This document shows positions 464 through 52,618 of a stretch of 64,000 nt of DNA, piece by piece (the stretch's first letter is position 1; the number at the start of each line of letters is the position of its first letter). The translations under genes and the position numbers were made by a program. The stretch covers positions 57,356,019 to 57,420,018 of the forward strand of contig CM049306.1 of the NCBI GenBank assembly GCA_026874595.1, given 5' to 3'. This stretch comes from Sipunculus nudus. Lineage: Eukaryota; Annelida; Sipuncula; Golfingiida; Sipunculidae. The notes under the pieces were generated by a model that did no database searches, had not been told where the DNA came from, and saw only the letters and a list, made by a program, of their open reading frames with translations.

Positions 464-553
464 ATGACGGACATAATCGAACCCGATGTTTCTCAAAGAT
501 CGAGGACTTCTCACATAGACCACAAACTCAGTGAAGGGGAGGGTTCTACAAGG
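464..553 (+). CDS. candidate first coding exon, 30 codons, product unknown
   Basis: The ATG has A at -3. It is followed by 30 open codons starting MTDIIEPDVSQRSRTSH and ending GEGSTR, then a GTAATG donor after AGG, giving phase 0. The peptide is polar and charged with no membrane segment, like the disordered cytoplasmic N-terminus of a larger protein. CpG is locally higher than in the surrounding DNA. The frame stays open upstream to about 383 without another ATG, so an internal exon with an upstream acceptor is also possible. The donor is acceptable rather than strong. I do not recognise the protein. The candidates at 43194 and 52487 end in the same phase and could be alternative first exons of the same gene. 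Confidence 0.4.
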
Positions 554-639
554 GTAATGTCCTAATCTTTTACTGGTATATTTTGAAGAATTCAGAGGGC
601 TTGCACGGTTATAACAGCTGGCTATGCAAGTTGTCATTG

Positions 640-1030
640 TCCGAGCAGTGAATTTCGTGACGTTGTCTGTTGTATTGATATGGGGGGGGGGGGGGGGGGG
701 GCATGTTTTGTTTTTATATAACTAGTCTGTCCTTTATTGCCTATTTGATCTGCCAAGACACCCCCATCAGTGTTTAGACAGTTTCGTACAAGAATTCTTA
801 CTGTTAATATTGAAACATTACCTGTCAGTGAGCGAGTCGGGTAGGTCTACTCGTGCAGTTATTGAGAAGGAAACCAACAGTCAACACTATATACCTTAGT
901 AAAGAATTTTAGTTGAACAATAAATATCTGAAAAAATAGTTTGTTTCTAATCATTACAATTTACATCAAACGTTCAGCACAAATTGCGACAATGGCTGGC
1001 TCTGCTATTGTGTAAAGGGTGTAAATACTG
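640..1030. other. non-coding, poly(G) tract only
   Basis: Holds a run of 20 G at 682-701. Otherwise AT-rich sequence with no recognisable feature. Confidence 0.7.
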
Positions 1031-1034
1031 TATA

Positions 1035-1615
1035 GTCCGTCCCAGTGCCCATGTCGGCATGTTTTTCCGGGATAATTTTTTATACAAGTAAAGCAGTGTT
1101 AACCTTTATTGTCCAAAGGTTGCAGGAGCTATTCCGCCGACTACCTTCACAAAAAGTAATGCCTTACCTTGCTTTAATTTTGTATGAGACGAATAATCCA
1201 AAATATGACAAAAAAAGTTACAGTGTTTACGACTTATTCCTTGCCTGGGAACTGATAATAAAGAAGCCAGTCAAACTTATGACGTCAGTCAATTGAAGGT
1301 GACGCGCTACCAATCACTGTAATGTCTTTGTGATGTCACTGTTGTCTGACACACACCAAACGCAGCCATAGACATGGAAAGTGTAACATGAAGGAATGTT
1401 CTGTCCAGCAGTGCCGGGAAGACGCCATTCACGGCATTTCAGCATAAAAAACGCAAAAGAGTCGCAAAGTAAATACATTTTACATGATGTATAACTTCTT
1501 TACACAAAATCGGCGGATTATCCTTTTATCTACTTCAGGCCAAAGGGCATTTTTTAAGAATATTTAAAAAAAAATTATCGCGAAAAAACATGCGGACACA
1601 GGTTTTGGGACGGTT
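1035..1615. mobile_element. TIR MITE, long inverted repeats
   Basis: The two ends are inverted copies of each other over roughly 90 bp. The left end reads GTCCGTCCCAGTGCCCATG and then CGGCATGTTTTTCCGGGATA. The reverse complement of the right end reads CCGTCCCAAAACCTGTGTCC and then GCATGTTTTTTCGCGATAAT. TATA lies immediately outside each end, consistent with a TA target duplication. No transposase is visible; the open frame at 1045-1296 lies within the repeat and is not coding. Confidence 0.75.
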
Positions 1616-1793
1616 TATAACTTTTAAGAATTTTAAGGTACACATCATCTGTTAAAACATGGAAACTTCAGGTAGAGTCAAAATGTATGACTTCATGAGT
1701 AATCAAGTTTGAGTCAAATATTTCAATTTGTATCTCTTAAATGCTCATATGACTATTTCACTGTCACATACAATTTAATTGAACTCAGTATTA

Positions 1794-2303
1794 TTAGGCC
1801 CTGCCATATATTGAGTCTGATAGCCATATGGTGTGAGTTTTTACAATATAAGCCACGGAGTATGCAGTGGATCTGTTGCATCTTTCTTTACAGCCTGTTT
1901 ACTGCCTAACAACAAGACACAGGATTACCCCATTTTAACACCAATAAGTATGTGATACATGGTTTCGATAGCAAATAAAATTAAAACTTGAATCAGAACT
2001 TTTTAACATTTACTGACTATTATACCAGAGGCATATCAGCAAGTTAAGTAGTGACGGAGAAGAACAGTTGTACCGGCACACTTTGCGAATACCTCACTGG
2101 GAGCCTCGCTGACTTGAGGGACTGAGAGCCAGACTTTATTATATTTTAAAAACAGGACAAGCTTTAAAATGTGACAGGCTGGCACAGGGTTATAGACACC
2201 TGTTGACATTGGTTACAAGGGGTTTGGCCTTGGGTGGTCTGAGGCTTATATTGCAGAAACTCTCACTGTATAGCAATCGGACTGGATACATGGCAGGGCC
2301 TAA
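1794..2303. mobile_element. TIR MITE, TTAGGCCCTG ends
   Basis: Left end TTAGGCCCTGCCATAT is matched by the right end ATGGCAGGGCCTAA in inverted orientation, and similarity continues inward for about 70 bp (CAATATAAGCC near 1846 against its complement near 2245). TA dinucleotides flank both ends. About 510 bp, with no coding capacity. Confidence 0.75.
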
Positions 2304-50039: not shown

Positions 50040-50380
50040 GAGTTTTGTTAACATGCTCTTTTGACTTAAAGCCAGGAGATAGTGAGTTCAAATCTTAACT
50101 GTGGCGATGAGACTTTCACATGAACCCCCACCTAGGGCGAGTACTCATCAGGCTTAATGGGAAGGCCATGCCCAACAGCTATGTTTCACTAACAAACAAC
50201 TGTGCCTTTCGGGGGTTCCTTGGTGGTTTGAGGATTACGCACCCAGGGCTTGCAGGTGCAGTAGTCACTGGGTCTGGTTAACACAAGGATAAAAAATGAG
50301 AGGAAGCGTGTGATACTGCCCAGTCATTTAGTCAGAAACCCAAATTGAATTCTGCAGATGTACATATACATAGTTAAGTC
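50040..50380 (+). mobile_element. SINE family A, copy 2 (older)
   Basis: Matches the 29.1-kb SINE through AAAGCCAGGAG, GTGAGTTCAAATCT (B box), GGCTTAATGGGAAGGC, a GGGGTTC block, GATTACGCACC, TTGCAGGTGCAGTAG, and the tail TCTGCAGATGTACATA. The A box is decayed and no target duplication is visible. Confidence 0.78.
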
Positions 50381-51472
50381 AGCATAAAAAAATGGAGATG
50401 GTCACCTCCTCCAAAAAAACTATTAAAAATAACAAAAATTGTTTTCCTGTTATTGTCATTTGGTGCAGATTCAGGCTTCTGATTAGCACATCTTTCCAAG
50501 CACAAGTTTCCAAATGGTTTGAAAAATTAAACTAATATATCATAATGATAAAATATACAAGTAAAAATGGTTAATCTGTGGCACATGTTATAAAGTGGTG
50601 CTACAAGCTTGTAAATTTACATTTAATTTGGTTTTGAGAACACTGATAAAGAACAAAAGATAAAAGAAAAAAACTTAAGTACTTAATGCACATTCAGTTG
50701 TTCTAACTCGGCAAGTTGTATGACATTTTAAGATGTTAACGGGTTTTCTGGCGTACTTTTCCTATAAATGAAGCTAGGATATCCACAATATGTTACTCGA
50801 TGTTTGTTGTCATAATTACTTCACTTAACAATGAGTGTCCACACCTTGAAAACACTTGTGATAATTTGTCTTATTTTAAAAGTAAGTAGATCAGTAGTTT
50901 ATATACACACATAAATATATATAGTATATATATATATGTATATATATTTATATATTGTCAAAAATCATTTATTTGATGAATTTAAGGTGTTTTTAAGGGA
51001 TCTTTTATTTTATGTATTCAAGGGGTTATGAAGAAGTATGAACTTAATATGGTATTGTAAATATTTTTGGATTGATCAAAAAAAATTACCTTAGGACAGG
51101 ACCAACCTGTTGATGTAATATATAGGGTTGTTAAATGTGATAGGTAATGCTTACCAACCAGCCTTTGTTTGCATGTAAAGCAAGAGACACAGGGTCAAAG
51201 GGTAAACTTGTCCAGGGACAGAACTGTCTGTGCTGGTGCAGACAGGTCAGACAATGGATCAGGTGTTAAGCCTTGAAGTGGCTGGAACATCATATGCATG
51301 TTTGTGTCAGTACATGCAGAGATTTAAATGAGGAAAGAAAATTCCTGTGTAGTGGAATATTATATGAATGAAGAAAGGACCAGTTATAGCAAGTTACTAA
51401 AACTCCAAAAATGAAGTACTACACCTTTCTAAAGCTATAAAGCTTATAATACCTGGGAATAATAAGAAGTGT
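50381..51472. other. AT-rich non-coding
   Basis: Contains a short interrupted AT run near 50.91-50.96 kb. No gene. Confidence 0.55.
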
Positions 51473-51578
51473 TATATATATATATATATATATATATATA
51501 TATATATATATATATATATATATATATATATATATATATATATATATATATATATATATATATATATATATATATATA
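51473..51578. repeat. (TA)n microsatellite, about 53 units
   Basis: Longest pure dinucleotide run in the window, with no interruption. Confidence 0.97.
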
Positions 51579-52249
51579 AGTAGAACCTTGTATTTTAATG
51601 TCAAAGATTGAAGATGCCCAGGTCAACAGACTGAACAAAACAGCGTGGCATAAGGATTATACAGAAAAATTAACTGTACGGCTAGCCATGAAAATTAAGT
51701 GAACCAACAATTAATCGCAACCATGATAATTTGAGAACGGAACATGTGATATAACATTGGACTCAAACAAATATATGTTGTGTAAGTATTAATGACATAT
51801 CAAAGAGACAATACCAAGGGGAAGCTATAATATGATTCGTCAAAGACTTTTTGTTTGAACTGACTATGATACATATTATTTGAACAATTGCAAATTTTAA
51901 GTAGAAAGCTCATCAAATACAGTATTGTTTGTTTGATGATTGGTATTAGTAATTTGACTTCTATGTCCCATTGGAGATAAGCTGGGTTTGGTATCATTTT
52001 GAAATGTATTTTATATTTTTTGTCATATAAATAGGTAGTTTCGAACTTTGATCTTGTTTGTTGTTTGTCATCCTTTGTTCTGCTGCGTAAAACATTGTCA
52101 CTTAAAATAAACTTGAACCAGATATCATCTTATTGTTAAACATTTCTGTGACATATATTTAGATAGCATTTTGAGACATCCCAAGTTTAAACCCAGGGTC
52201 AATGTGACATTACATTGTCACAGGAGAGTGGACACATCATGATGTCACC
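51579..52249. other. non-coding, nothing recognised
   Basis: No supported feature. Confidence 0.55.
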
Positions 52250-52470
52250 AGAGAGAGGCTACTCGCTGACCTTTATAATGTCAAGTACAGCAAGTAGAGC
52301 ATCACCGTCTAAAATAACATACTGCTTTTAAGAAGGACAAATGTTAATCATTGTGACATCACCAAAGTTAATGGCCTGACGTACTTGAAAAGTATACACA
52401 GTCTATACTCAGAGAAATCATCACTTTATCACAAGTCAGCACTGGTTTTGATCAGGTTGACAACAAATTC
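52250..52470 (+). promoter_or_regulatory. duplicated segment immediately upstream of exon candidate (possible promoter/5' UTR)
   Basis: About 220 bp shared with 47861-48085, ending about 17 bp before the ATG at 52487. Its place directly before the best exon candidate suggests promoter or 5' UTR sequence that was duplicated without the exon. It could equally be an unrelated dispersed repeat that happens to lie there. Confidence 0.4.
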
Positions 52471-52486
52471 AGAAATAAAAATCACA

Positions 52487-52618
52487 ATGTCGGCTCCTGA
52501 CACAGAAAAAATCCTCAAAGGCGAGGATGTTAACCAAAACAGCATCATGCTGGATAATCCTGGATACACAGAGTCTGTGGATGAAGATGGAAAGGATGAT
52601 CCTGAGAATGAGACTGAT
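52487..52618 (+). CDS. candidate first coding exon, 44 codons, acidic, product unknown
   Basis: ATG with A at -3 opens MSAPDTEKILKGEDVNQNSI, followed by an acidic stretch with MLDNPGYTES and ending DDPENETD. It then meets GTGAGTAGG, a strong donor, in phase 0. The peptide is hydrophilic and acidic with no signal peptide, as expected for a disordered cytoplasmic N-terminus of, for example, a membrane transporter or scaffold; this is inference and no family is recognised. The upstream 220 bp are duplicated at 47.9 kb without this exon. No downstream exon in a compatible phase is identifiable in the remaining 11 kb, so the rest of the gene would lie beyond the window. Confidence 0.5.

Follow-up and report, generated by a model that had tools for sequence, protein, structure and literature searches.

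Several short open segments lie far apart on one strand of this locus, and the question is whether they represent alternative first coding exons of a single gene, which is a common gene layout. The window, meaning the whole stretch of DNA analysed, comprises 64,000 nucleotides. A sequence-only reading had singled out three segments on the + strand, beginning at 464, 43194 and 52487, as candidate start exons that would fit one gene spread over 52 kb, and had added a weaker candidate beginning at 4581. Reading the letters confirmed where the three segments lie, that their frames are open and that each is followed by a GT donor in phase 0; it also confirmed the phase-0 end of the weaker candidate. 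The lengths of all four are divisible by 3, which places the four donors (4/4) in phase 0. The segments, their donors and the other features of the window are collected in Table 1.

Table 1. Candidate segments, donors and repeats in the window
Feature	Position	Strand	Description
Candidate segment	464-553	+	90 nt; ATG start, open, then GT; peptide MTDIIEPDVSQRSRTSHIDHKLSEGEGSTR; GRAVY -1.11
Donor	553	+	AGG/GTAATG; score 1.0
Candidate segment	4581-4604	+	24 nt, 8 codons; ATG, open, then GT; peptide MENNEVKK; GRAVY -1.96
Donor	4604	+	AAG/GTGAGT; score 8.3
Candidate segment	43194-43310	+	117 nt, 39 codons; ATG, open, then GT; peptide MEVNAATDWEFLDEGLGTIDVFDISEELYNGEKDTVWSD, 12 D/E; GRAVY -0.43
Donor	43310	+	GAC/GTTAGT; score -0.8, weak
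Candidate segment	52487-52618	+	132 nt, 44 codons; ATG, open, then GT; peptide MSAPDTEKILKGEDVNQNSIMLDNPGYTESVDEDGKDDPENETD, 14 D/E; GRAVY -1.35
Donor	52618	+	GAT/GTGAGT; score 3.8
Open ATG segment	30245-30400		G+C-rich; phase 2 if spliced at the donor 30396, phase 0 if at the GTGAGT at 30401
Tandem arrays	12131-13264; 35899-36902; 43963-45229		three separate arrays, related unit of about 279 bases
Tandem arrays	40294-41423; 42122-42861		two arrays upstream of 43194, similar unit of about 42 bases
Minisatellite	56528-57286		33-base unit, about 23 copies
tRNA match	29123-29194		Rfam, 31.6 bits; not called by ARAGORN; overlaps 29152-29463, a stretch 69% like 50064-50366
Direct duplication	47860-48082; 52249-52468		same strand, about 220 bases, 86.6% identity; TTTATAATG in both copies

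Coding signal of the candidate segments

In the initial-exon scan, open segments running from an ATG to a GT on the two strands were scored on start context, codon content and donor; the splice-site, start-context and amino-acid weights used in the scans were general values, not trained on this organism. Among the 1198 candidates of the unmasked scan, the segment at 52487 stood at the top of the list (rank 1 or 2, presumably tied), 43194 was fifth, 4581 sixth and 464 eighty-third. When 20305 repeat bases were excluded, as they were also in the six-frame scan described below, the + strand scores were 18.8 for 52487, 18.6 for 30245, 13.9 for 43194 and 13.0 for 4581, and the next best candidate reached 7.0. 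The best score on the - strand was 9.7, with none at 12 or above. Four candidates scoring at least 12 on the masked + strand compare with 0.14-0.16 expected from shuffles, and this number was reached in 0/300 order-1 and 0/300 order-3 shuffles. Under three settings of third-base composition, 52487 led at two and came second to 30245 at GC3 0.35, a setting at which the masked scan assigned 43194 the donor at 43361 rather than the one at 43310.

In an AT-rich window, codon scores are inflated by patches rich in G+C; the test was therefore repeated on each segment's own base composition, with 5000 base shuffles per segment. The scores of 43194 and 52487 were matched in 0/5000 shuffles each, and the P values were 0.087 for 464, 0.107 for 30245-30400 and 0.13 for 4581. 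The runner-up at 30245-30396, which was not in the sequence-only list, lost its high plain score under this control (in-frame score -8.8) and was set aside. Thus, of the three proposed start exons, two exceed chance, and 464-553 does not.

The codon structure of the two segments is distinctive within the window. Purines occupy 77% of first codon positions in 43194 and 80% in 52487, with G alone accounting for 51% and 45%, respectively. Of 13661 overlapping open stretches of 39 codons, the only ones to equal or surpass the first-position G excess of 43194 are found at the two loci and once more near 54800, on the opposite strand; for the excess of 52487, the 10423 overlapping open 44-codon stretches yield only the two loci. 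Likewise, no other place among the overlapping open stretches of the window equals their counts of acidic residues.

A six-frame coding scan, in which 1485 repeat-masked open segments were scored against local composition and starts and splice sites were ignored, returned 43110-43361 first (16.5) and 52487-52675 second (15.4). Third was 25625-25771 (+), a coding-like open segment with a score of 14.1. The maximum of the null, from 60 shuffles, reached these three scores in 8%, 15% and 23% of cases, so that the third is at null level and the window-wide significance of either 43194 or 52487 alone is modest. The agreement of the top two segments with two picked beforehand by an independent reader adds weight. 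Both combine a coding-like composition with an ATG, an open frame, a GT and phase 0, and the coding status of 43194-43310 and 52487-52618 is fairly well supported.

Limits of the two probable coding segments

The segment 52487-52618 is probably a first coding exon ending in phase 0. Its frame scores -6.4 and -2.9 in the upstream stretches, 14.0 within the exon and 2.2 past the donor, and the best-scoring segment of the six-frame scan begins exactly on the proposed ATG, with no other ATG in the 100 bases upstream. Among the seven listed acceptors upstream, 6/7 take a phase-0 transcript into a stop, including the best one, at 52456 (2.1); the frame is kept only from 52436, a poor site (-2.3). 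This speaks for 52487 as a first exon in its own right; its use as an internal exon, read in frame behind the donor at 43310, was judged unlikely.

One copy of the direct duplication stops 18 bases ahead of this ATG. The duplicated block may represent either a mobile repeat or a promoter-like element. TATA-like motifs were found only at 52272 (TTTATAA) and at 227 (TATAAAT).

The segment 43194-43310 is a probable coding exon in phase 0, with a start and an end less certain than those of 52487. Two out-of-frame ATGs lie 29 and 23 bases upstream, at 43165 and 43171, and the frame upstream scores -2.0 and then 2.4. These limits matter for a less likely alternative, in which both segments code for protein without being first exons of one gene: each would open a gene of its own, or 43194 would be an internal or terminal exon of a separate transcript. 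This alternative draws on the weakness of the donor at 43310, on the best coding segment, which overruns both proposed ends, and on a stop codon right after 43370 that is followed, about 130 bases beyond, by ATTAAA at 43501. However, the frame scores 11.2 within the proposed limits against 2.4 and 2.0 outside them, and ATTAAA is common, occurring 59 times on the + strand of the window. Moreover, the acceptors listed in the open frame upstream all score -1.1 or lower, and the stronger site at 43001 (3.5) is separated from that frame by an in-frame stop ahead of 43059.

Search for a shared gene and for relatives

The sequence downstream also bears on the choice between one gene and two. In the six-frame scan, the unmasked sequence from 43371 to 64000 held no other + strand segment scoring above 9; a transcript from 43194 therefore probably passes 52487, which favours one gene, and we infer that the two segments share it. 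A search for exons behind a phase-0 acceptor, from 52650 to the window end and scored without a null run, gave nothing convincing among its best 15 matches, which comprised the 33-base minisatellite and two weak matches (7.3 and 5.2). A shared downstream exon was thus not found in the last 11.4 kb of the window, a search of moderate power.

Two matches in the internal-exon scan of both strands exceeded 12: one is a tRNA-like element, the other the 33-base minisatellite. The scan kept acceptors of at least 3 and donors of at least 1.5, which is stricter than the donor at 43310 and would miss weak exons. Exons simulated from the scoring model, a lenient test, were recovered in 12% of cases at 20 codons, 50% at 40 and 68% at 50, so exons of separate genes might be missed. 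An apparent exon at 56495-57014 was rejected as in-frame tandem repeat of the minisatellite, whose unit is a multiple of three and hence creates long open frames on two strands (183 and 195 codons). No second copy of 43194-43310 or 52487-52618 was found within the window at E 1e-6.

Relatives of the peptides were sought in Pfam, NCBIfam and PDB, and the collections searched for the window as a whole (these three, Rfam and viral contigs) include no animal-genome collection. The three peptides (P0001-P0003) had no family match in Pfam or NCBIfam, and among PDB sequences the best E was 1.1 for P0003, with none for P0001 and P0002. Pfam gave one sub-cut-off match for the open frame surrounding 43194, with E 0.0062 (16.9 of 27 bits) and mostly upstream of the ATG, and one for that surrounding 464, with E 0.15. 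Two window stretches queried against viral contigs found no relative. Four peptide fragments were not found in any paper, and a literature search on alternative first exons in molluscs returned nothing relevant.

The wider Pfam searches covered 139 + strand sequences (the three peptides and 136/143 listed frames of at least 50 aa, with 7 overlapping ones dropped), 149/155 listed - strand frames (6 dropped) and, to the right of 52700, all of the listed + strand frames with 27-49 aa (82/82). The + and - lists omit low-complexity frames and frames mostly within tandem arrays, and the short list omits frames inside two tandem arrays. The best E values were 0.00048, 0.0042 and 0.0047, respectively, each in a single member of its set. 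About 0.07 occurrences of the first would be expected over 139 scans; judging by its resemblance to a consensus, it probably comes from 48436-48636, which lies in a repeat block. When ten + frames were rescanned, the only match was hAT dimerisation at 6050-6322, below the cut-off (E 0.042). Rfam returned one tRNA match in the window, at 29123-29194, which is possibly a tRNA-derived SINE.

It is unlikely that open stretches without coding function were simply singled out by eye from 64 kb. The null maximum that reaches the two scores in 8% and 15% of shuffles, the peptides without a family or solved-structure match at a meaningful E value and the chance-like behaviour of 464-553 would fit such an origin. 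It would not readily account for the best two of 1485 segments being the two named beforehand, nor for the ATG and GT that both contain, with the signal concentrated in between.

The shared phase had been taken as a sign of one gene. It is indeed common to all the candidates, but it is weak evidence: in shuffles, the top three candidates fall in one common phase in 12-13% of cases and all in phase 0 in 5-7%, the set was picked by the reader, and the runner-up 30245-30396 is in phase 2.

The candidate at 4581-4604 is possibly a very short first coding exon in phase 0. Its start context is good, its donor is the best of the four, and this donor is the single match to MAGGTRAGT on either strand of the window, where 2.37 would be expected by chance; its 8 codons are too short for coding content to be judged. 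That all four segments form a set of alternative first exons over 52 kb is very unlikely: they are open, in phase 0 and on the + strand in 4/4 cases, and 4581 has its good start and donor, but 464-553 ranks 83/1198, scores 5.3 after masking, carries a donor scoring only 1.0, is preceded by an ATG out of frame at 436, and shows a first-position G excess reached by 5987/22609 overlapping open 30-codon stretches, so it was rejected as a coding exon. As for the alternative-first-exon reading itself, the coding signal at 43194 and 52487 stands behind it, but 464 is at noise level and a common acceptor was not found in the window.

Proposed gene layout and known systems

The best explanation, about as likely as not, is a single + strand gene that has its body beyond 64000 and starts alternatively with 43194-43310 or with 52487-52618 as its first coding exon. 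The genome would be intron-rich and, to judge by the repeats in the window and the absence of long genes, that of an animal. Either exon would have its own promoter, and splicing in phase 0 would span more than 11 kb from 52618 and more than 20 kb from 43310, both transcripts joining a shared body right of base 64000. The resulting proteins would differ only by a short acidic N-terminal tail. The segment 4581-4604 may be a third such first exon, and 464-553 is probably not one. Mechanistically, the most likely basis would be the ordinary use of alternative promoters, each with a first coding exon of its own.

A bolder version appears highly improbable. It supposes a gene, possibly lineage-specific, in which three or more first coding exons are spread across about 48 kb and encode unrelated N-terminal tails: 4581, 43194, 52487 and, by way of a phase-0 donor at 30400, perhaps also 30245. 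The duplicated block 47860-48082/52249-52468 would then act as a promoter-like element feeding 52487.

If two alternative first coding exons are indeed present, they would help to annotate the 5' end of a long animal gene. Such gene starts are easily missed, being short, far apart and absent from domain libraries. The layout would be an ordinary one, leaving the general view of gene organization unchanged.

Three known systems offer parallels. Plectin has several first coding exons, and its isoforms are alike except at the N-terminus (PMC8466646), as is proposed for the gene in the window; unlike the window candidates, for which no shared exon was seen, its common exon 2 and its transcripts are known. 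For SLC4A2 (AE2), PMC2891616 describes first exons that are used alternatively and bring alternative start codons. There, as would be the case here, these exons carry their own start codons and are located within an intron of the gene they belong to; the SLC4A2 exons are established from transcripts, and the searches described above brought up no sequence link between them and the window. The sea urchin gene SpIL17-4a, according to PMC5457136, has two start sites, and its first exons join a common second exon, changing the N-terminus. It is likewise an invertebrate gene in which alternative first exons alter the N-terminus, but its first exons encode five residues and one, while those proposed for the window encode 44 and 39.
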